The notes beneath the pieces are model-generated. The model searched no databases. It had not been told where the DNA came from and saw nothing but the letters and a program-made list of their open reading frames with translations. From NCBI GenBank assembly GCA_033439255.1, contig CM065880.1, positions 1,674,001 through 1,738,000 on the forward strand: DNA of 64,000 bases. Reading direction: 5' to 3'. Position numbers and translations under genes: made by a program. The DNA is from Hericium rajendrae. Its lineage: Eukaryota; Basidiomycota; Agaricomycetes; Russulales; Hericiaceae. Positions within the stretch are counted from its first letter, which is position 1; every line of letters begins with the position of its first letter. Shown piece by piece: positions 20,266 to 33,014 of this stretch.

Positions 20266-20764
20266 GACCTCCTCTCTCCCGCGCCTCTCCCTGCCCCCTT
20301 CCGCCGTCGCCTCGCCATCGCCTCCCACCTCGCCGTCTCCTCGCTGTCGCCTCCTGTCACCTCCTCGCCTCCTCGTCACCTCCTCGTCGCCTCCTCGTCG
20401 CTCAGTGTCGCCGTCGCCTCCCCATCGCTCAGCACCGCCGTCACGCCTGCAGTGGCTGGCGTACCATTTCTCAATGCCCACGCCCACGTGTGCCAGTGCA
20501 CGCAGCCTGCCGAACAACGCCCACGCCCGCCTGTTGCCTCGCGCACGGGCTATACCCCTTGCGTATGGCCTCGCGAACCCGCACATGGTGCTGCTGCGTG
20601 GCACATGGGCCAGACGTGCTGCGCGTGGTCCGTCTCGCGCACGAGCCCACGGATTGCGCGCAACCCGGCCATGCTGCGTGCGGCCTTGCCAGCGGACGGC
20701 CGGAGCCTCGCGCGGGCATGCCAGCTGACACACGCACGCCCACACGTCGTGCGTGGCCATGCGC

Positions 20765-21783
20765 TGATGCGCCCTTTAGCGCGCCTTGCAACGGCATTGC
20801 CCACTCCCCGCCTCCTTGCCCGTCCCGCTTCACTTCACCTCAGCCGCACCAAGTCCGCCCACCGCGACGTTGCTCCCCGCACAGGACAAGCGCCCCCACG
20901 GGTTCGGGACCGACCGGGTCAGACTAAAGCCGGCGTCCCGTGGTCCGATGCACCGAACGGGCAGGAGATCAACCGGCCGGACGAGTCAGCGGCACAGGAA
21001 CAGAAGCGCGCCCAGAGAACCAGCCGGCTCAATCAACGTGCCCTCGAACGCCCACACGCCCCCGGATCACGAGCGGCGCCCGCGACCAGCGCTACTGACG
21101 TCATCCCAGCCATTCCAGCTCGACGTGCCCGCCGTTCCCGACGCACGCCCCGGGCGACGTTGTAAGGCGGCACCTTTGATTCGTTCGTACCACGCGCATG
21201 CCCTCTGCCCTGCACGGGCCGAGCCGCAACGACTCCACTCGCCAAGGGACCCGGAGCAGGCAGGATCAGGAAGGAATTGGAGATTGGGTCGGTCAGCGGG
21301 AGGTTGTCGTAGGGAGTCGCGCCGGGCCGCCAGAGGCGGCCTTGCCCATTTGTACCGTAGCTACTGACTTAGAGAAGCAGAACGGAATCTGCCTTTTTCC
21401 CCTCAGAGCTCAGATCTCACAAAGCCCGCCGTTTGACGTTCTCACCCCAGTCTCTAAGCACGTCTCAGACGTAGCTCTTCTCACTTTCTTGTGTCGCTCA
21501 TCATATTCGTCGTACTCGTCGCCGCGCCGTTATCTACAAGCCGTATCACCTAAGACCCATGAGTCTTGTCGTACCGTCATCGTCCCTAGCAGAGCCGTGT
21601 CGGAAGTCGCCCGCGTGCAGCAAGCTCGCCCTCCGCGGCCTTGCTCCCCTACCCGTAGTACGATCACCCGTCAGCTACACGTCTCGGTGCTCCCCTCTTG
21701 AGATACTTGGTCCCCTCGCACCCCCCGGTACTCTGTTGGTTTTGGTTTTGGCTGCCGCCTCCATTCCCAGGGTCCACACATCA
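20765..21783 (+). repeat. 5' LTR of the gypsy element
   Basis: 1,019 bp, TGATGCGCCC...CACACATCA. The frames of 100-240 codons that cross it (for example 20,786-21,367) also occur in the 3' LTR and reflect its GC content. It differs from the 3' LTR by about 12 bases, all of them C-to-T or G-to-A changes at CG positions. Confidence 0.95.
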
Positions 21784-21786
21784 TTT

Positions 21787-21804
21787 TGGAGCCCACCGCG
21801 AGGG
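21787..21804 (+). other. Probable primer-binding site
   Basis: TGGAGCCCACCGCGAGGG begins 3 bases after the 5' LTR. It opens with TGG (complement of tRNA CCA) and runs into GAGGGTTC, whose complement GAACCCTC fits the 3' side of a tRNA T-arm. The tRNA species is not determined. Confidence 0.6.
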
Positions 21805-22105
21805 TTCCATACTCAAAATAGAGCCGTGTCGTACTAGGAGTAGCGCACGGTCGAATCCAGATCGTACCCTCGAACAAGAAGTCCGTGTTGCGACTCAGGA
21901 CCCTCAGCAAGTTTCCCCCGACCTACCGTCACCTTTCCCGCCGGTTCCAACTCCCACTAGTCCCCTTACTCCCATCGACGAAGAGTTCGAAATTCCCGAG
22001 CTCGAGCGTTCCTTCATCGTTCCTACTCCACCCGTATCGCCAACTCTGGCGCCGCTAGCCCCTGCACGTTTCCCCTTCCCCAGGCCACCAAGTATCCAAC
22101 CAGTC

Positions 22106-24613
22106 ATGCCGCCCCCCTCCATGCCTATGCGCGGCGAGAGCGGTGCTCCCAAGTTCGACACCAACTCCCCCTGCGAGCTGGGCCGTTACTTCCTCGATCT
22201 CGAATTTTGTTTTCAGCGTTCCTCCGTGGCAGATGACGCAGAGAAAAAGAGTCATGCGGTCCGTCTCCTCTCAGACGTTGATGCACAAGAGCTGTGGCGG
22301 TCCGAGGCCAAGTACGCCGCCGGCACTTGGGACGAATTCAAGAAAGCTATCCACGAACTCTACCCGGGCTCGGCTAAGGAGAATACCTTTTCGCGTCAAG
22401 ATTTGGAGTCACTTGTCCACCGAACTGCCGAGTCCACCCTCAGTTCCGTCGGCGAACTTGGTGCGTTCTCGCGCGAGTTCACGGTCATCACGCGCTACCT
22501 GAAAGGCAAGAACCGCATCTCCGATATCGAGGAACAACGCTGGTTTTTGGCGGCGCTCCCCGAACGTCTTCGCCTGCGGGTAGAGGACCGCCTTGCTCTT
22601 ACCAAGCCTGATCACCATCCCGACGATCCGCACCCGATCAACGACGTCTATAGGGCCGCAGAGTGGTGCATGTATGGCACTGCCATCACCCCCGACCCGT
22701 ACCTGCGTGGACCGTCGTCAACTCAAGCCACCGCGTCGTCATCAACCGCCGATGCAGGCTCAGGAACGACTATCCAGATTAAGAGTGAGCAGTTAGCGTC
22801 ACTGGCCGATATCCTCTTGAGGAGCGCGCAGCAGCCGTCGCGTCAACCGATGGTCTCTGGAGGTAATCAAGGCGCGCCAATGCGCGGGCGAATGGGGTCG
22901 GATCAGTGCAACTTCTGTGGGAACGTGGGGCATTTCGTGCGCGAATGCATGACAGCCCGGGAATACATGGCCGCCGGCAAGTGCAAGAAGGACGTCCAAG
23001 GCAAGATGGTCTTACCCTCTGGGGCTTGGCTCCCGCAAGGACCCCCAGGCGCGACTATGGCCGAACGGATCGACGAATACCACCGTATGAACCCCAATCA
23101 GCGAGCCACGGGTCAGCTTATGATGGGTGTAGCCGGTACCCACCAGGCAAGTTCGCCGCGGGCGGGGCTCCCTCCCTACAGCTATCGCATCGCGCCGGCA
23201 TACGCTCAGACCACCGCGTCCCCCTATACCCAGGTCCAGGCAGGGTTGTACCAGCTCACCACAGACGCGCGGATCGAGAGCCTGGAGGGCGAGTTACGGC
23301 GGTTATACCAGTTGAAGGACGCCTCGGTTGTGCCCCCACCCAATGCCACGGCCAGCCGTGATAGAGCTAACCGGGCGTTGGAACGAGCTCGCAGGATGGA
23401 AGAGCCTGCCCGCCAACCAGCCCCTCCACGATTGCCCCGTGCGCCACCGCGCCCGACCATCGAGGACGAACCAGAGCCGCCGCGGGCGTCCCTGCCCCCT
23501 CCGCAAGCTTCACCGGCCCCAGGCCCGGAACGAGACGTCCCCCCCCACCTTCTATCTCAACCTGTGGTACGCGACAACCTCCGCGACCCTGATGGTCTCA
23601 TCCACCCATTTGCCAGAGCCCGCGACGGTGCAAGGCCCGCGCAAGTCCCAGTGATCGAAGTAGTCGAAGAGACGGGCCCAACCCGTCGTGCGCAAGACTC
23701 AGTCGGGCAAGACGTGCTGGACCGCGTGTTCGCGCGCGCCATGTCCCTCCCTATCGAGGTCACCCAGGGCGAGCTCTGGTCCCTGGCTCCTGCACTACGC
23801 ACGAAATACAAGGAGGCAGTCTCACGGCGTCACACGCGTCCGGTGGCGGGACAGAACCTGTTGGAAGTCCTTAACGAGACTGACCTGCTCTCCGAGCTGC
23901 CAGGTGAAGATGCAGTCGAGGAGCTGGCCTCGCCAGCGCGTCAAGTAGAGCTCGCTGCAGGTATCCAGTTTGCGAGCGAGCCCGCCGAAGGCGACCGTGT
24001 GCAGCACCCGGCCTCGCCCCCTCATCCACGAGTATCTATCCTTTCGCACCAGTGCGCCGAGCCGCCGGAAGGTGCTGTCGTCCTCCCGGATCCCTACGAG
24101 CAGTACCTCAAGCAACTCCGCCCGGACGAAAAGCCTAAACCCCTGATCATCTCGCGCGAGTCTGCGGCGCTGCGTTCTATTGCAGCACTCATAGATCATC
24201 AAGAACCGGTCGAGTGCATCTTGGACCCAGGTTCTCAGGTCATCTCCATGTCAGAGAGCGTTTGCTACACCTTAGGCCTGTCGTATGACCCCACGATTAT
24301 CCTCACTATGCAATCCGCCAACAGCGAACTTGATGACTCGCTGGGCCTGTGCCGAAACGTGCCTGCAGTCTTCGGCAACATTGTTCTCTACCTCCAAATA
24401 CACGTCCTCCGGTCGCCCGCCTACGATATCCTACTCGGACGCCCCTTCGATGTGCTTACCGAGTCAGTCGTGCGCAGCTACCGCAATGAAACACAGACCA
24501 TCACCATCTTCGACCCAAACACCGGCGAAGCAGCCACGATCCCCACCCATCCGCGCACTGACATTCAGTATACGCTCGCAGCAAAGGAGGATTTTCGCGC
24601 TTCGATGATTTGA
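22106..24613 (+). CDS. Gag-protease polyprotein of the gypsy element
   Basis: Structural protein of the retrotransposon particle with a retropepsin at its C-terminal end. The frame is open from 21,698, inside the LTR; the first Met after the LTR is at 22,106 and opens a sensible protein of about 835 residues. A helical capsid-like part (about residues 10-200) is followed by a CCHC zinc knuckle, CNFCGNVGHFVREC, coded at 22,907-22,948. A Pro/Arg-rich linker leads to a protease-like domain near 24,200-24,600 with DPGS in place of the usual D-S/T-G and a later ILLGRPF motif. The downstream pol frame is -1 relative to this one and overlaps its end, so frameshifting is likely. Pro at the active-site motif is unusual but occurs in some gypsy proteases. 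Confidence 0.88.
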   Translation: MPPPSMPMRGESGAPKFDTNSPCELGRYFLDLEFCFQRSSVADDAEKKSHAVRLLSDVDAQELWRSEAKYAAGTWDEFKKAIHELYPGSAKENTFSRQDLESLVHRTAESTLSSVGELGAFSREFTVITRYLKGKNRISDIEEQRWFLAALPERLRLRVEDRLALTKPDHHPDDPHPINDVYRAAEWCMYGTAITPDPYLRGPSSTQATASSSTADAGSGTTIQIKSEQLASLADILLRSAQQPSRQPMVSGGNQGAPMRGRMGSDQCNFCGNVGHFVRECMTAREYMAAGKCKKDVQGKMVLPSGAWLPQGPPGATMAERIDEYHRMNPNQRATGQLMMGVAGTHQASSPRAGLPPYSYRIAPAYAQTTASPYTQVQAGLYQLTTDARIESLEGELRRLYQLKDASVVPPPNATASRDRANRALERARRMEEPARQPAPPRLPRAPPRPTIEDEPEPPRASLPPPQASPAPGPERDVPPHLLSQPVVRDNLRDPDGLIHPFARARDGARPAQVPVIEVVEETGPTRRAQDSVGQDVLDRVFARAMSLPIEVTQGELWSLAPALRTKYKEAVSRRHTRPVAGQNLLEVLNETDLLSELPGEDAVEELASPARQVELAAGIQFASEPAEGDRVQHPASPPHPRVSILSHQCAEPPEGAVVLPDPYEQYLKQLRPDEKPKPLIISRESAALRSIAALIDHQEPVECILDPGSQVISMSESVCYTLGLSYDPTIILTMQSANSELDDSLGLCRNVPAVFGNIVLYLQIHVLRSPAYDILLGRPFDVLTESVVRSYRNETQTITIFDPNTGEAATIPTHPRTDIQYTLAAKEDFRASMI

Positions 24614-27600
24614 TCGAAGATCAAGGAGAGGTCGCCTTCATCGTTGATTTCGACTCGGAGACGCCGCAAATCACGGCTTATGCCACTATACCCCCAGAAT
24701 GTTCCGAAAACCCAGAAAAATGCCAAGATCATCTTCAATCTCTTTATCTCTATGCCTGTGATGCCTCGCTTCTCGACTCTAGTCCGGGGGGTCCTTCGCT
24801 TTCGGATGCCCCCGATAAATCTAATTTGTTGTCCGCCTTTCTCTCCGCTACAGCCTGCAAGTCCGCTTCCGCTTCCAAGCAAGGTCGCCCGGGTCCGCCG
24901 CCTCCTGGCGCGACAGATACCGGTCCTCCTATCGCCTCTTACACCGCAAAGAAATACAAGCCAGTTGCCCAAAAAGTCCGCCCAGTATTTACGGACCTCC
25001 CCGAGCGTTTTCGGGTTCTCCGTAACATCAAAGGTGACCCTCTCCAAGACCTGCCGGAGTTATCTCCCAATCCGCCCCCGTTCGCTCCCACCGCCCGCTA
25101 TACCGAAGAAAGAAAAGCGGTTATCGATCGCGCCCATCCAGAAGGTTTCCTCTGGCCCTCCGAGCGTGACCTACTCCACCATTTCATGTGTCTCCACGAT
25201 ACCGCCTTCGCCTGGGACGATTCAGAGCGGGGACATTTCCGCGAAGACTTCTTCCCCTCAGTGGTTATGCCGGTGATACCGCACACCCCCTGGGTCTTGA
25301 AGAACCGTCCAATCCCGCCAGGCATCCATGACAAGGTCTGCGAGATTATCCGTACCAAGATCGCCGCCGGCGTATATGAGCCTTCGTCGTCGTCATATCG
25401 CTCATGCTGGTTCTGCGTCACCAAAAAGGATGGTACAAGCCTGCGCATTGTGCACAGTCTCGAACCACTCAACAAGGTCACCATCGCTCACTCGGGCGTC
25501 CCGCCTTTTACCAACCAGCTCGCCGAGCAGTTCGCCGGGCGTGCTTGCGGCGGCATCCTCGATCTCTACGTTGGTTACGACGAGTGACTCTTGGCGGAGG
25601 AGTCCTGCGACATGACCACGTTCCAAACCCCGTTCAGGCCCAAACGGCTCGTTACGCTGCCCATGGGGTGGATGAACTCCGTGCCTATCTTCCACGACGA
25701 CGTTACCGAAATCCTCCGGCCAGAAATCCCAGCTGTCACCATGCCCTATATCGATGATGTCCCCATTAAAGGCCCAGCTACCCGTTACGAGTTGCCCGGC
25801 GGAAATTTTGAAACTATACCCTGGAACCCAGGTATCCGTCGCTTTGTCTGGGAACACTTCCAGGGCGCGAACCGTGTCGTCCAACGCATGAAATATTGCG
25901 GTGGTACCTTCTCAGGGAAAAAGACTGTCCTTTGCGTGCCGGAAATCATCGTCGTCGGCCATAGATGCACGCCGGCGGGCCGTTTGCCAGAACTCAGCAA
26001 CCTCGCCAAGGTCAGCAACTGGCAACCTTGTACCGACCTCTCGGACGTTCGCGCTTTCCTCGGGACCATTGGCGTGGCCCGCATCTTCATCAAGAACTTT
26101 GCAAAACGTGCTCACCATCTGGTACGGCTTACGTGCAAGGACACCCCATTCGAGTTCGGCCCAGACCAGTTGGCTGCGCAGGAAGACCTTAAGCAAGCGC
26201 TACTCGCATCACCCGCCCTGCACGCGATAGATTACGAGTCTCCCGCCTCAGTGATCCTGGGCGTCGACACCTCCTATATTGCCATCGGTTACCTACTCTG
26301 TCAACAGGATGTGGACGACCCCAAAGTTCGCCGGTATGCTCGCTTCGGCTCTATCGCCCTGAACGACCATGAGGCGCGCTTCTCCCAACCAAAGCTGGAA
26401 TTATATGGCCTATACCGGAGCCTTCGCGCACTCAAACTCTGGCTCATTGGCGTTCGCAACCTGATTATCGAAGTCGACACCCGTTATATATCCGGCATGC
26501 TGAATAATCCCGATCTCGCCCCTAGTGCGTCCATGAACCGGTGGATCGTCGGCATCCTCATGTTTCAATTTACCCTGGTCCACGTCCCTGGCGAGAAGCA
26601 TGGGCCGGATGGCCTCTCCCGGCGCCGCCCCCAGGACGATGATGCGCCCGAACCCGATGACGACTTCGACGACTGGGTCGACCGTGCTTATGGCTTTGTA
26701 CACATAATAAATGTGCCTCGGATCGGCCACGACCGCCCTCAGCTGGCCCAACAGCTCATCTCGACCAATGTCGCCGCCGGCGATTTTGTCGCGCCTCCTC
26801 CGCAAGACCACTTGGCGTCCTACGCAGACGTTCCAAGGTCCGAAAAATCCCTCCTCACGGATGCCCGACTGCGCGCCGTCACCGACTTCCTGCTCCATCC
26901 GATCTGCCCTGACGGACTGACGGACCGGGAATACGCTCGCTTCCTGCGTTATTGCCGCGACTTCTTCATGAAAGGTGGCCGCCTCTGGAAGCGCGACAAG
27001 ACAAATGCGCACAAACTAGTGCTCCCGCCGACCGGCCGCTGGGCTGCTCTCGTTGAGACTCACGAGTCCGCGGGACACCGTGGCGTCGCCGCAACCGCCC
27101 TCCTGCTCGCGGTCCGTTTCTGGTGGCCTTTTATGGGCTCGGATGTCGCTTGGTTCGTCCGTTCATGCCATATTTGCCAAGCGTTCCAGATCCGCAAAGT
27201 TCTTATCCCGCCAACGGTTGCGGTGCCCGTGCCTTTATTTGTGAAAATGTACATGGATACCATGCACCTGCCGAAATCCAACAATATGCAATACCTGGTC
27301 CAAGGGCGCTGCTCGGTGTCCCACTTTCCCGAATGGTGCATGCTGCGCAAAGAACGCAGCGAGCACATTGCTGATTGGATTTACCAAGACATCTTGTGCC
27401 GCTGGGGTATGCTCACCGAAATCGTGTCCGACAACAGCGGCCCGTTCGTTAAAGCCTTGACGCAGCTGGAAAAGAAGTACCACGTCCGGCATATCCGCAT
27501 CTCGGGCTATAACTCGAGAGCCAACGGCATCGCTGAGCGTGCACACTTTGACGTACGCCAAGCCCTGATCAAGGCCGCCGACGGCGTGGAGAAGAATTGG

Positions 27601-28266
27601 AGCTACTCAGCCCACTCCGTGTTCTGGTTGGAACGTATCACCATCCGCCGGCGCATGGGCTGTTCCCCATACTTCGCGGTAACCGGTACGCACCCCCTGA
27701 TGCTGCTCGATATCACGGAAGCCACCTACCTGCTACCGCCGCCCGAGGCGATCTTGTCCTCTACCGACCTGATCGCCTCCCGCGCTCTTGCCCTGCAGAA
27801 GCGTCAAAAGGACCTTCAGCGACTTCACAGCCGCGTCTACGAGGCCCGCCTCCAGGCAGCACGAAAATTCGAACTGGAACATGAACGCACGATCCGCGAC
27901 TTTGACTTTCGCCGCGGCGAACTGGTACTTGTCCGCAATTCCGCGTACAGCACCAGCCATTCCCGGAAGACCAAACTGCGCTACCTAGGCCCGTACCTCG
28001 TCCTCGGCCGCAACAAGGGGCGTGCTTACCTCTTGTGTGAGCTCGACGGTACGTTATTCGACTGGCCCACCGCAGCCTACCGCGTTGTCCCGTATTTCGC
28101 CCGTACCATCCTCGATCACCCGCCATTGGAAGATTTCCTCGATGTCGGCATCGAGCAGTTTGAACGTTTACTCGCCTCCACCGTCACAGACCCGGATGAT
28201 GAAACCGCCGGCAGCGACCTCGGCGGTCGACAGGTCCCGACCAAGTTCGCCCGCGGCGTCCTCTGA
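24610..28266 (+). pseudogene. Pol (RT-RNase H-integrase) with one in-frame stop
   Basis: Reverse transcriptase, RNase H and integrase of the Ty3/gypsy type. The RT has the catalytic YIDD at about 25,748 and a fingers/palm region upstream (MPVIPHTPWVLKNRP onward). RNase H follows (VILGVDTSYIAIGYLL at about 26,250). Integrase shows the HHCC zinc finger (27,060-27,180), the D..D..E core (MDTMHLP, SDNSGPF, NGIAERAHF) and a GPY/F-type module near 27,990; no chromodomain is visible. A TGA at 25,585-25,587 interrupts the RT frame where related proteins have Arg; a single CGA to TGA change at a CpG explains it. Both parts lie in the same frame. The frame before 24,610 overlaps the end of gag in -1 phase, so the start codon is probably not used alone. 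Confidence 0.93.
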
Positions 28267-28302
28267 CCACTCGACTAGCGAGGAGGACTGAGGGCAGTCC
28301 AT

Positions 28303-28319
28303 TTTTCAGTTAGGGGGAG
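28303..28319 (+). other. Polypurine-tract copy directly after pol
   Basis: TTTTCAGTTAGGGGGAG lies 36 bp after the pol stop codon. The identical 17-mer is found at 31,770-31,786 and at 31,973-31,989, the last directly before the 3' LTR. This first copy is where the 3' LTR would begin in a gypsy element without the extra 3.7 kb. Confidence 0.85.
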
Positions 28320-28626
28320 TAGAGGCCGTCAGTCAAGCGTGTCGACGACCTTGGACGCCCCACCAATACCCACACGCACGAAATAAATCTATTGTTACTT
28401 GCATTTCGACAAACTCGCCTTGGGCGATCTTCATACCATCCACCACTCAGATGTTACCTTCACCAATCGTATAGGCCCTGACAAGATCGCCTGGGGCGAC
28501 TTTGTTTCTTTCTGGTTTTCCCCTTTAGATTCACACAGGTTCAGACTTCAAGATGGGCTCCCATTCGGCAGGAGCAACGATACAGTAGGACTCGGCGTCC
28601 CGATTACGAGCAACCTATAGTAAAAA

Positions 28627-28646
28627 GCCGGGCCTAAGGCCCGGGC
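28627..28646. terminator. GC-rich hairpin near the 3' end of the antisense gene
   Basis: GCCGGGCCTAAGGCCCGGGC forms a strong stem between pol and the end of the antisense gene. An AATAAA lies on the plus strand at about 28,382. A role in 3'-end formation of convergent transcripts is inference. Confidence 0.3.
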
Positions 28647-28747
28647 AACACAAAACGTATGTGACAACTTCCACGACGACAAAACAAGATAGCAAATTTA
28701 AAAGGGGAGGGTCTTTCCCTCCCCACGCAAAGTGACAGCCCCGCTCG

Positions 28748-30668
28748 TCAGGAGTCAGCCGGCACGACTTCCTCTGACGCGGCCACCTCAGCGACAGGAG
28801 CCGCCGTCGGCTCCAACGGCTCACCAGGACCCTCAACCGAAGGAACGGGGGACTCCCTCGCGAGCGGGCGCGAAGACGGACCCGCGGTGGGACTCGCCGC
28901 GGCCTCCTCCTCTGCGTCGCTAGCGGCGTCCGCAGGCTCGTCCTTGGCGACCTTGCCCTCTTCATCCGCCTCCGCCGCGATATACTCGCCGCGCGTGCCC
29001 GTATAGAGGGCCGTGACGAGCCTCTCGACGGCGAGGATCTGGCCGTGGTTCGACATGCATTGGAGGTACAAACCGACGAGCTGCCGCTCGGTCTCCGCGA
29101 GCAGGGTGCAGCGGAGCGACGAATCGCGCGGAATGCACGCGTAGGGGTTGACGTAGTCCCAGGCCCCTGGACGGAAGCCATCGGAGACCGGGAACGGAAG
29201 GCGAGATGCGAGCGCCTCGAACGGGGCTGTAGGACGGTCACCCGGTCAGCAAACGCGTAGCAACAGTGGGGTAGCAACTTACGGAGCGCGCCCGCGGAGT
29301 CTGGTATCCCCGGCAAGACCACGGGGGAGTCGGCCACCTGGTCGCGACCAGAAGAAGCCGCGGCGGCGCGTGCGGCAACGGGATCCACGACGGGCGCACC
29401 CATCCGCGTCAGATGCGCGTTGAGGTCGACACAGGCGAGGCAGGAAGTGCGCTTCTCGCTGCACTCGCAGCATCGCTCGTGCTTCGCGCGCCCGACGTTC
29501 TTCGCAGGGAGGACCCGGCGGAGGCACTCCTTGCCCTCGTTGATGCACGCGGTGCACCACTGCTCGGGCAGGCACTACGCAAACAGAAAATTAGCGTCGA
29601 GCACAGGTGGAGGAGATGGGTACTTACCGGACCCCACTTCTCATCGGGCTCCTTGGCCTTGGCCTTCCCTTTCCCCTCGTTCGCAGCGACGGCGCCAGCC
29701 GGCCCCGTACGTGCCCTCTTCGCCGGCGGGGGCACTTCGACAATCTCGTCCCCTGCCTCCTCCTCCTCGACAGGTGCTACGGCCTTGCGTTTGGCCGCGC
29801 GAGTCGCGGCGGACACTGGAGCGTCCAGAGCCGGGTCTACGTCCCGCTCGGCGGACGCGTCTACGACACCGGTGGCGGTCAACAGGGCGGCGACTTTGAG
29901 GCGGTCTTGCTCACCGGTCTGCGAGCGGGGCGGCGACGGAGCCCTGGTGCATGTGGAAGACGAGGCCTGCGGGGTCTCGTTGGTTGGCGCGGCCGCCCTT
30001 TTGCCCTTAGGGGGCCCTGTCTTGCGCGTTGAAACGGGCGCGACCTGCGCGGGCCCCTTGCCCTTGGGTGTCGCGGCCGCAAGCGGGGTGTCGTTGTCGC
30101 TCTCCTCGAGCTCGTCGGTCTCCCGGTCCTCTGTCTCGGTCGGGTCTTCGGGGGGCTCGAAGACGTCGAGCACCTTGGCACCCCACTTGCGGTCGGACTT
30201 CAGCTCGAGGCGGCTGAAGACTACACGGGCGTCGGCGATCCCACGACGGAAGAAATCGTTGTCGAGGTGGGTCGGTCGACCTCAAGAGAGGGCCCTGTCA
30301 GGAGTGGTGGTCAGCGGGGACGGAAGCAAAACGTGCGCCGGCGGACTCACCAAGCAACTGGCAACCTGGGTGATCCACTCTGCCCAGACATTGCCGGGGT
30401 CGCCTTCGCGCGGGTGGCCTGACCCGAAGAGGCGTTCGAGAGCCTGAATACCCTTGGGGCGGTTGTCGACGTACGCGCGAGCCATGGGAGACGAGGTGCT
30501 AAGGAGCGAGTCGCCTCGCAACTCAGTGTTCATAAGGACTCCGCGACAAGACGGAAGCGCCTGGCGAATTGCCTCCGGAGAAGCCCCCGCGTACAGGTAG
30601 CTTCGCAGCTTCGCGCAGAAGCCCGCGATGCGGGCACCCGGCCAAAACAGTTGTCGCTTCGGACTCAA
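28748..30668 (-). CDS. Antisense cargo gene 2: Zn2Cys6-like protein in the retrotransposon
   Basis: Minus-strand spliced gene downstream of pol. Parts in order: a W/F/Y-containing segment (30,668 to about 30,355), an acidic Pro/Lys-rich stretch (about 30,280-29,628), a 53-nt intron (29,627-29,575), a Cys-rich segment, a second intron (29,282-29,227), and a C-terminal part that ends at 28,748. Both introns have GTAAGT donors, TAG/CAG acceptors and matching phases. The Cys-rich exon starts at 29,574 and has the spacing C-x2-C-x6-C-x16-C-x2-C-x6-C, as in fungal Zn2Cys6 DNA-binding clusters; a DNA-binding role is inference. The junction around 30,280-30,355 is unclear: a GTGAGT donor is present but the phase does not match, so a frameshift or another exon is possible. 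The first codon is not certain. Confidence 0.6.
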
Positions 30669-30838
30669 TCAGGATCTCAGGCCCCGATTGGCGCCCATTT
30701 GTCATTTCAGCCGCGTCTCGCGAACAGGAAGCCTATTCAACGACGGGCAAGTCCCACAGACAGCATAGTGCACCTTGGCACCAGAATAGTTCAATTGAGT
30801 GGCGAGGCATGCTCGCCACCGGCATACATCGTACTATA

Positions 30839-31591
30839 CTAATCCGCGGCCCCTCCCACGACCCTGTCACGGGCGCCCTCCTCGTCTGCTCGGTAGGGCG
30901 GAAGCCGCAGCAGCTCGGCCAAGTCGAGTGCCTCCGCCACTAGGCGGTGCATCGTCTCTAGCTCATGCGGATCCTCGCTCACCTCTCCCCCGGCGTCTTC
31001 CCATGGCAACTCCGGCGCAGAGACCGCTTGATGCAGCCTGGCGAACAACGGCTCCAGAGCCCGCTTGCAGGCCTCCGCGTCTATGACGTCATACTGGTAC
31101 TTGCGGCAGGTGATATCGATTTCCTCCAGGGCCACCGCACGGCGCGTCTCCCACAGCTCGGACTCGGCCACGGACAGGCGGTCCGCGGCATCTACCTGAT
31201 GGTGCTCCAGGGAATCGAGCCACTCGCGCTTCAGCGACGGCATGAGGTACCAACCCCAGTCGAGCCAACGGCAGACTTTCCCGGACGCGCGGGCGGCCTC
31301 GGACAGGAAGTGGTCTGACATCTGCGTGATGTCATCCTGCAGACCCACGTCGATGGCGCCAGCGTAGCGCTGGTAGTCCTTCTGGAGTCCCGAGAATTAG
31401 CAGGTACGCAACAACGCCGCAAACGAGCTTGGACGTACTACGGCGACCATGAGGTCTCGACCCCAGATCTCGCGTTCCCGGATGACCGCGTCGCGCTTGG
31501 ACAGCGTGGACGCATCGAGCGGGGTCCACGAGCACTCCGAAAGGAGCCAGGTCACTTTCTGGCGGAAGACTTGATCAAGGAAGGTGTTCAT
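30839..31591 (-). CDS. Antisense cargo gene 1: hypothetical 231-aa protein in the retrotransposon
   Basis: Two-exon gene on the minus strand: exon 1 31,591-31,439, a 57-nt intron 31,438-31,382 (GTACGT donor, GCTAAT branch, CAG acceptor), exon 2 31,381-30,839. The splice is in phase 0 and gives about 231 residues, starting MNTFLDQVFRQKVTWLLSE and ending RVVGGAAD. The product is helical, rich in Leu/Glu/Arg/Trp, with heptad-like stretches (about residues 90-150), no membrane segment and no domain that I recognise. A TATA box lies about 65 bp upstream. Transcription would run against gag-pol, from just inside the 3' end of the element toward gene 2. It could be a trans-acting accessory protein or a captured host gene. 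Confidence 0.65.
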
Positions 31592-31652
31592 CGGGACAAG
31601 ACTGCCGGGCGCGAAGATGGCTCGGAGTTGAGTGCCCTCCCGGGGCGTAGAT

Positions 31653-31663
31653 GCCTTTTATAG
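31653..31663 (-). promoter_or_regulatory. TATA box of the antisense genes
   Basis: CCTATAAAAGG on the minus strand, about 65 bp before the ATG at 31,591. It is the clearest TATA box in the retrotransposon and is outside the LTR. Confidence 0.6.
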
Positions 31664-31680
31664 GCTCGCTGCAGCACACC

Positions 31681-31991
31681 CGCCCAGGGCGCCGTCGCAC
31701 AATCGGCTTCATGCATGTCCGCGCCCGAATCCCTCGTGGGGCTCCAGATTAGACTACGGAGAGTCTAAATTTTCAGTTAGGGGGAGAATGATGCGCCCTT
31801 TAGCGTGCCTTGCAACGGCATTGCCCACTCCCCGCCTCCTTGCCCGTCCCGCTTCACTTCACCTCAGCCGCACCAAGTCCGCCCGCCCAGGGTGCCGTCG
31901 CACAATCGGCTTCACGCATGTCCGCGCCCGAATCCCTCGTGGGGCTCCAGATTAGACTACGGAGAGTCTAAATTTTCAGTTAGGGGGAGAA
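31681..31991 (+). repeat. 203-bp tandem duplication with polypurine tract and LTR start
   Basis: The segment containing 'gcacaatcggcttca', the polypurine tract and the first ~98 bp of the LTR is present twice, with an offset of 203 bp (TGATG at 31,789 and at 31,992). Only the second copy continues into a full LTR. Short GC-rich similarity at the junction (cgcccaggg / cgcccaccg) may have caused the repeat, for example by strand slippage in reverse transcription. Confidence 0.85.
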
Positions 31992-33010
31992 TGATGCGCC
32001 CTTTAGCGTGCCTTGCAACGGCATTGCCCACTCCCCGCCTCCTTGCCCGTCCCGCTTCACTTCACCTCAGCCGCACCAAGTCCGCCCACCGCGACGTTGC
32101 TCCCCACACAGGACAAGCGCCCCCACGGGTTCGGGACCGACCGGGTCGGACTAAAGCCGGCGTCCCGTGGTCCGATGCACCGAACGGGCAGGAGATCAAC
32201 CGGCCGGACGAGTCAGCGGCACAGGAACAGAAGCGCGCCCAGAGAACCAGCCGGCTCAATCAACACGCCCTCGAATGCCCACACGCCCCCGGATCACGAG
32301 CGGCGCCCGCGACCAGCGCTACTGACATCATCCCAGCCATTCCAGCTCGACGTGCCCGCCGTTCCCGACGCACGCCCCGGGCGACGTTGTAAGGCGGCAC
32401 CTTTGATTCGTTCGTACCACGCGCACGCCCTCTGCCCTGCACGGGCCGAGCCGCAACGACTCCACTCGCCAAGGGACCCGGAGCAGGCAGGATCAGGAAG
32501 GAATTGGAGATTGGGTCGGTCAGCGGGAGGTTGTCGTAGGGAGTCGTGCCGGGCCGCCAGAGGCGGCCTTGCCCATTTGTACCGTAGCTACTGACTTAGA
32601 GAAGCAGAACGGAATCTGCCTTTTTCCCCTCAGAGCTCAGATCTCACAAAGCCCGCCGTTTGACGTTCTCACCCCAGTCTCTAAGCACGTCTCAGACGTA
32701 GCTCTTCTCACTTTCTTGTGTCGCTCATCATATTCATCGTACTCGTCGCCGCGCCGTTATCTACAAGCCGTATCACCTAAGACCCATGAGTCTTGTCGTA
32801 CCGTCATCGTCCCTAGCAGAGCCATGTCGGAAGTCGCCCGCGTGCAGCAAGCTCGCCCTCCGCGGCCTTGCTCCCCTACCCGTAGTACGATCACCCGTCA
32901 GCTACACGTCTCGGCGCTCCCCTCTTGAGATACTTGGTCCCCTCGCACCCCCCGGTACTCTGTTGGTTTTGGTTTTGGCTGCCGCCTCCATTCCCAGGGT
33001 CCACACATCA
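31992..33010 (+). repeat. 3' LTR of the gypsy element
   Basis: 1,019 bp, TGATG...CATCA, preceded by the polypurine tract at 31,973-31,989 and followed by the target duplication GCGC. Same length as the 5' LTR with no indels seen. Confidence 0.95.
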
Positions 33011-33014
33011 GCGC

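Follow-up and report, generated by a model that had tools for sequence, protein, structure and literature searches.

A Ty3/gypsy retrotransposon family in Hericium rajendrae with a predicted antisense module of two intron-bearing genes between hairpin-led polypurine tracts

Sense introns of a retroelement are erased when its genomic RNA is spliced before reverse transcription, and host-type introns in such an element are therefore unexpected. A 64,000-nucleotide stretch of the Hericium rajendrae genome (assembly GCA_033439255.1, contig CM065880.1, positions 1,674,001 to 1,738,000 of the forward strand; hereafter the window, whose numbering is used throughout) raises the question of how they can be kept: it contains a 12.2-kb Ty3/gypsy retrotransposon (20765-33010), and the 3.7-kb block between its pol gene and 3′ long terminal repeat (LTR) carries two predicted minus-strand genes, A and B, both with spliceosomal introns. 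On balance, we favour the reading that this Ty3/gypsy retrotransposon, from a Hericium-like mushroom, carries a permanent antisense accessory module, whose mechanism would include a nuclear protein and a second primer of DNA synthesis. In the copies examined the module has one order and one fixed place: hairpin and polypurine tract (PPT) 1, gene A, gene B, hairpin and PPT 2. Its parts in the window are as follows.

28285-28319, plus strand: internal hairpin (28285-28300, 6-bp stem) and polypurine tract 1 (28303-28319), from tract search, folding and stem scan
30533-28748, minus strand: predicted gene A, four exons (30533-30351, 30294-29628, 29574-29283, 29226-28748), 539-540 amino acids where open
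30350-30295, 29627-29575 and 29282-29227, minus strand: introns of predicted gene A, with canonical splice signals
31591-30839, minus strand: predicted gene B, exons 31591-31439 and 31381-30839 including the stop, 231 amino acids
31438-31382, minus strand: intron of predicted gene B, with canonical splice signals
31662-31654, minus strand: TATA box TATAAAAGG, present in 24 of 25 copies; it lies ahead of gene B and clear of the LTR
31749-31786, plus strand: hairpin (31749-31768, 7-bp stem) and polypurine tract 2 (31770-31786), the normal 3′ PPT, from tract search, folding and stem scan

The initial annotation, made from the letters of the window, had proposed spliced minus-strand genes here, one of them with a TATA box outside the LTR, and both proposals hold as sequence predictions. 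The three introns it named (29575-29627, 29227-29282 and 31382-31438) have a GTRNGT donor, a CTRAY branch site and a YAG acceptor, and they join open frames. Its minimum of two genes also stands; its introns for gene A were one short, as one further intron (30350-30295) lies ahead of the two named. A scan for the same three signals on the block of another copy, L002, found exactly four introns, all of them on the minus strand, while shuffled blocks gave a mean of 0.18 per strand and never four or more (0/300 shuffles). As controls, gag-pol had none on either strand, and the window flanks had 7 (plus) and 10 (minus) in 20.8 kb on the left and 8 (plus) and 14 (minus) in 31.0 kb on the right; by these counts, the block's minus strand alone is denser in introns than its surroundings. 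The introns are of host type in length (53-57 nt). For both genes the spliced coding frame of L002 is the only one of six that is free of stops, with GC fractions at codon positions 1, 2 and 3 of 0.71, 0.55 and 0.82 in A and 0.71, 0.44 and 0.83 in B.

The block is a constant trait of the family. Searches of the genome (46.8 Mb, 19 contigs) returned matches to it at at least 41 places, with 40 of 141 first-look candidates scored. The block begins, as originally described, at position 28303 with a 17-bp tract, TTTTCAGTTAGGGGGAG, 11 nt past the pol stop and at the usual place for the start of a 3′ LTR. This tract occurs 81 times genome-wide (0 for the reversed control) and forms 25 exact pairs spaced 3,447-3,519 bp; two pairs have odd spacings, of 1,137 bp (L039) and 6,487 bp (L034), and wider pairs and single tracts are also present. 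Among seven singles inspected, six precede an LTR and one precedes the block. Pol-tail matches reach the end of pol in 35 of 40 cases, and all 35 have an exact tract 1 at 37-39 nt downstream. At the fetched loci, 30 tracts run into the block, 35 into an LTR and none elsewhere. No copy lacking the block was seen among the pol tails and tracts examined, where truncated and interrupted copies were not traced singly. The block had been expected to recur behind the pol of other gypsy copies if it belonged to the element, and it does; a later single-copy insertion with its own ends is ruled out by its presence behind 35/35 pol ends. One copy (L039, G000:C11:1484900-1488300) has lost 28675-30998, including all of gene A; it retains the LTR and the two tracts, together with most of gene B, and is possibly a natural deletion derivative.

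We aligned the block of 25 copies (the window copy, L002-L008 and L017-L033; L034-L036, interrupted or truncated at the start, were excluded), which differ pairwise by 2.1% on average. The four canonical introns of the predicted genes persist in all 25, at different loci. Splice ends are invariant in 25/25 for three introns, and the donor of the gene B intron is GTATGT in one copy. Retention of introns after many retrotranspositions is what the antisense orientation predicts, as the initial annotation had argued.

Could the block instead have been captured from the host, or stem from an old nested transposon that is now carried along without function, with the starting tract copy as the scar of its capture? 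Host-type introns fit such an origin, as do the start of the block at the normal place of the 3′ LTR and its third-position GC content (82-83% in A and B versus 65-68% in gag and pol). However, no source gene was found: by coordinates compared with those of known element copies, every match to gene A exon 3 (all 43 candidates were scored) and every one listed for gene B exon 2 (50 matches from 51 candidates) falls within or next to an element copy or a decayed fragment. The most diverged match (L047, C1:50500-56500), considered as a possible host copy standing on its own, proved to be a stop-containing fragment. Nor does the block contain an inverted repeat of 17 nt or longer (seed 14), and the pol tails and tracts yielded no blockless copy. 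We consider this origin improbable, and capture of host genes, as a reading of the earlier proposal, finds no support in the placement of the exon matches.

The predicted protein of gene A has a charged, low-complexity N-terminal half, stretches rich in lysine and arginine and, past the N-terminal half, the segments CTACINEGKEC and, 17 residues on, CCECSEKRTSC, which form two C-x2-C-x6-C half-sites. The fungal Zn(II)2Cys6 cluster consists of two such half-sites joined by a linker of about 5-12 residues. Gene A matches this motif in its half-sites and departs from it in its 17-residue linker, and it has no Pfam match at E ≤ 0.1; on these two grounds it is not placed in the family, and its cysteine pair is best described as resembling a Zn2Cys6 cluster with a long linker. 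All six cysteines are kept in 24 of the 25 copies, among them L029, which has a stop between the halves; L025 is frame-shifted there. Comparison of the two antisense proteins with databases, which had been proposed as a check, was productive for A and not for B. Among the best 8,000 candidates scored, the sole relative of A is a protein of Hericium alpestre (Russulales), 77% identical over 67% of A, which shares the C-terminal region and all six half-site cysteines; a repeat search with the conserved part (3,632 candidates) gave the same single protein. Gene B had no protein-database match at E ≤ 0.001 (4,073 candidates).

Gene A is open over 539-540 codons in 11 of the 25 copies, and gene B over 231 codons (once 261) in 20; in the window copy, A is frame-broken near 30275 and open for 156 codons. 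We compared nonsynonymous to synonymous variant ratios (N/S) with expectation, classing variants by base change and CpG context; the B frame in this test begins 21 nt upstream of its ATG. Across all variants N/S was 0.83 for A (P = 0.047) and 0.75 for B (P = 0.072); for variants common to at least two copies it was 0.80 (P = 0.13) and 0.60 (P = 0.078), and for the diverged copy L037 0.81 (P = 0.067) and 0.73 (P = 0.117). The remaining antisense frames gave 1.01-1.39. By feature, 42%-69% of CpG sites vary, compared with 3-7% of other sites outside the tract, an excess expected of methylated repeats.

The faint selection signal and the 11 open copies of A would also suit a module that works through antisense RNA, in which double-stranded RNA would restrain the element and the open frames would be remnants; a role for double-stranded RNA has been raised for other elements (PMC7264820). 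However, the four canonical introns and the codon-position composition suit proteins better, and so does the retention of the six cysteines in 24 of 25 copies, L029 with its intervening stop included, and in H. alpestre. We regard the RNA explanation as unlikely and continue with predicted proteins.

Several smaller observations concern the edges and the opposite strand of these genes. A start of gene A further upstream was considered: in three copies, about 45 open codons precede the ATG at 30533, then a stop, and there is no other ATG; an additional upstream exon may exist. A long coding frame in 28303-28760 was likewise rejected, as all six frames of the window copy contain stops there, and short spliced exons may lie within that interval. 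In the interval from tract 1 to where gene A ends (28320-28747), the minus strand has hairpins, for example at 28644-28628, and the sequence varies little (12/363 non-CpG sites); it could hold the 3′ end signals of gene A. Opposite gene A, the plus strand, which has no canonical intron in the block, has a 390-amino-acid open frame (29275-30447); sense frames of this kind come cheap at the high GC content.

Antisense genes between pol and the 3′ LTR have been published in plants (Grande, RIRE2 and Retand) and in Botrytis (PMC7264820, PMC11963269, PMC8365987). As in plant aORF-3R genes (Grande gene23, RIRE2, Retand), for which the available text reports no similar genes outside transposons (PMC7264820, PMC11963269), the Hericium frames are antisense to gag-pol, open after splicing in 11/25 (A) and 20/25 (B) copies, and the block is present in most family copies. 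An own promoter has been reported for the Grande antisense gene, and a nuclear or regulatory role has been proposed for plant aORF-3R (PMC7264820, PMC11963269). The Hericium element differs in its basidiomycete host, in the spliceosomal introns that interrupt both of its two predicted genes, and in the hairpin-PPT unit on either side of them. It also differs from the Retand lineage, where an antisense TRP28 domain (pfam04195) occurs in 97% of clusters (PMC11963269): pfam04195 was not found in A or B. The word intron is absent from the available text of that paper, as are both antisense and intron from that of a survey of fungal LTR elements (PMC3248453). Among the papers listed by our searches of the open-access literature, at most 20 per search, no spliced antisense gene of an LTR retrotransposon came up. 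The element had been suggested to be an undescribed lineage; this survives for the intron-bearing, PPT-boxed arrangement, which is unusual, and not for antisense extra genes as such, which are already known at the same place.

A fungal counterpart is brtn of Boty / BcGypsy1, reportedly described by Zhao et al. in 2011. It is an antisense gene of Botrytis cinerea and, like A and B, an addition to a fungal gypsy element; going by the description in the citing papers, it differs in being a single named gene in an ascomycete (PMC7264820, PMC8365987). A viral parallel is HBZ of human T-cell leukaemia virus type 1 (HTLV-1), a spliced antisense retroviral gene on the 3′ side that encodes a nuclear regulator (PMC3185765). 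The predicted Hericium genes share with it a splicing that is here predicted, antisense orientation and position on the 3′ side of a retroelement. HBZ transcripts begin in the 3′ LTR, where the start codon of the major spliced form also lies (PMC3185765), whereas the predicted promoter and introns of the Hericium element are internal; the proteins were compared by Pfam scan only.

The tracts at the module's borders are part of a longer duplicated unit, with a perfect hairpin ending 1-2 nt before each of tracts 1 and 2. The stems are GGACTG/CAGTCC (6 bp) at tract 1 and TTAGACT/AGTCTAA (7 bp) at tract 2; such perfect stems are rare in the element, and one would stand at both tracts by chance with a probability of about 3e-5. 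The alignment of the two units spans about 35 nt; they have the stem core GACT/AGTC in common, and the next outward pair is G-C in one unit, A-T in the other. The stem is paired at all 30 tract-1 and all 35 tract-2 places, once through a T-G pair, and RNA folding recovers both stems (z = −2.10 at tract 1, z = −0.93 at tract 2). With the pol stop 11 nt before the tract of unit 1, an ancestor is most naturally read as ending in pol, hairpin-PPT and LTR, with the unit then duplicated around the module.

We wondered whether tract 1 resembles the central PPT of lentiviruses, where a second internal PPT identical to the 3′ PPT starts plus-strand DNA (PMC4393142). Tract 1, too, is internal and matches the 3′ PPT exactly. 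Unlike the lentiviral tract it lies past the pol stop rather than in a central position within the integrase gene, and it has a hairpin in front; its priming role is putative. That tract 1 is a mere relic of duplication and primes nothing is a serious possibility: none of the 41 block matches listed begins at its edge, as an insertion primed there might, and its lack of variation (0/17) is unremarkable where non-CpG sites seldom change anyway, as in the following 428 bp. What speaks for a retained function is that the 17-nt tract is identical at both sites though the neighbouring hairpins have drifted with pairing kept.

In the reading we favour, a permanent antisense module, genes A and B would be transcribed from their own promoters toward pol. 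The introns would persist because the genomic RNA carries their reverse complement, which the spliceosome would not recognise, so antisense orientation would account for intron survival in this family. Gene A would encode a nuclear nucleic-acid-binding protein, as its paired half-sites and stretches resembling nuclear localisation signals suggest. This protein may tune the element's transcription or nuclear steps, by analogy with what is proposed for plant antisense proteins and known for HTLV-1 HBZ. The inner hairpin-PPT may be a second plus-strand primer, like the lentiviral central PPT, and could help the copying of an element lengthened by 3.5 kb. The most specific form of this proposal, a Russulales gypsy lineage that carries a spliced two-gene regulatory module antisense through reverse transcription, boxed by hairpin-PPTs of which the inner one primes, is put forward tentatively, as the less probable side of the question.

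A number of points weigh against this reading. The promoters and the splicing of A and B are predictions from sequence, and gene A is broken in 14 of the 25 copies. The signs of purifying selection are weak in each test, and the tests are not fully independent: the in-register sense frames also fall below 1 (0.87, P = 0.12, opposite A; 0.83, P = 0.17, opposite B), and the pol control (22 rows; L026, L033 and L037 set aside) was not significant (0.94, P = 0.39, for all variants; 0.64, P = 0.11, for shared ones). CpG decay makes up most copy differences, with 258/479 CpG sites variable in the A exons versus 55/1142 other sites, and the diverged fragment L047, with its stops, gives no independent sign of function. 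B, like A, has no Pfam family at E ≤ 0.1, and neither gene B nor the H. alpestre relative of A has a PDB match at E ≤ 1. At the borders, the tract 2 region folds no better than shuffles, and tract 1, 3.7 kb from the 3′ LTR, is not central. The 25 aligned copies are young and numerous enough for a test with ordinary RNA-seq, and a natural duplicated, hairpin-led PPT in Ty3/gypsy would make the role of an internal plus-strand primer testable in another kind of retroelement.

The rest of the element in the window has the expected Ty3/gypsy architecture.

20765-21783, plus strand: 5′ LTR with TGATG...ACATCA ends, from blastn self-comparison
21659-24613, plus strand: gag-type open frame that includes a zinc knuckle and an aspartyl-protease-like segment, both by Pfam matches under curated cut-offs
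24562-28291, plus strand: pol with reverse transcriptase, RNase H and H2C2 integrase, overlapping the gag frame, from open frames and Pfam
31679-31881 / 31882-32084, plus strand: 203-bp tandem duplication that takes in the PPT region and ~99 bp at the start of the LTR, from self-comparison; holds the third tract, 31973-31989
31992-33010, plus strand: 3′ LTR, from blastn self-comparison

The LTRs are 1019 bp each and 98.8% identical by blastn self-comparison of the window, and an apparent 4-bp target duplication, GCGC, read by eye, flanks the element (20761-20764 and 33011-33014). Ty3-like reverse transcriptase and RNase H with an H2C2 integrase lie between them, and Ty3 Gag-Pol is the best match of pol among solved structures (E = 8.5e-20). 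Copies whose pol tail frame is longer have the pol stop at 28289-28291; the window copy of pol is broken by an in-frame stop in the reverse transcriptase region (25585-25587) and a frameshift near 28226.

The 17-bp tract starts at 28303, 31770 and 31973 in the window, so the block does end at two further tract copies there, as first described. The third copy is no family trait: the 203-bp duplication is private to the window copy among those aligned, and the other 24 have a single tract before the LTR, that of L029 with one mismatch.

In an alignment of 26 copies over about 5 kb, which has 29 indel sites, polymorphism is most frequent at ~28226 and ~30275, each of which lies on a copy of one 8-bp palindrome with an EcoRI core. 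Length variants occur there in 10/26 and 11/26 copies, several in reverse-complement pairs; in the window copy they break gene A and the pol tail. This palindrome is not unusual genome-wide (919 sites), and the indels reflect either methylation-linked sequencing error or a real process of cutting and repair. Other gypsy families abound in this genome, with at least 150 H2C2 integrase matches (150 of 287 candidates scored), and those shown score higher than the 53.9 bits of the present family.

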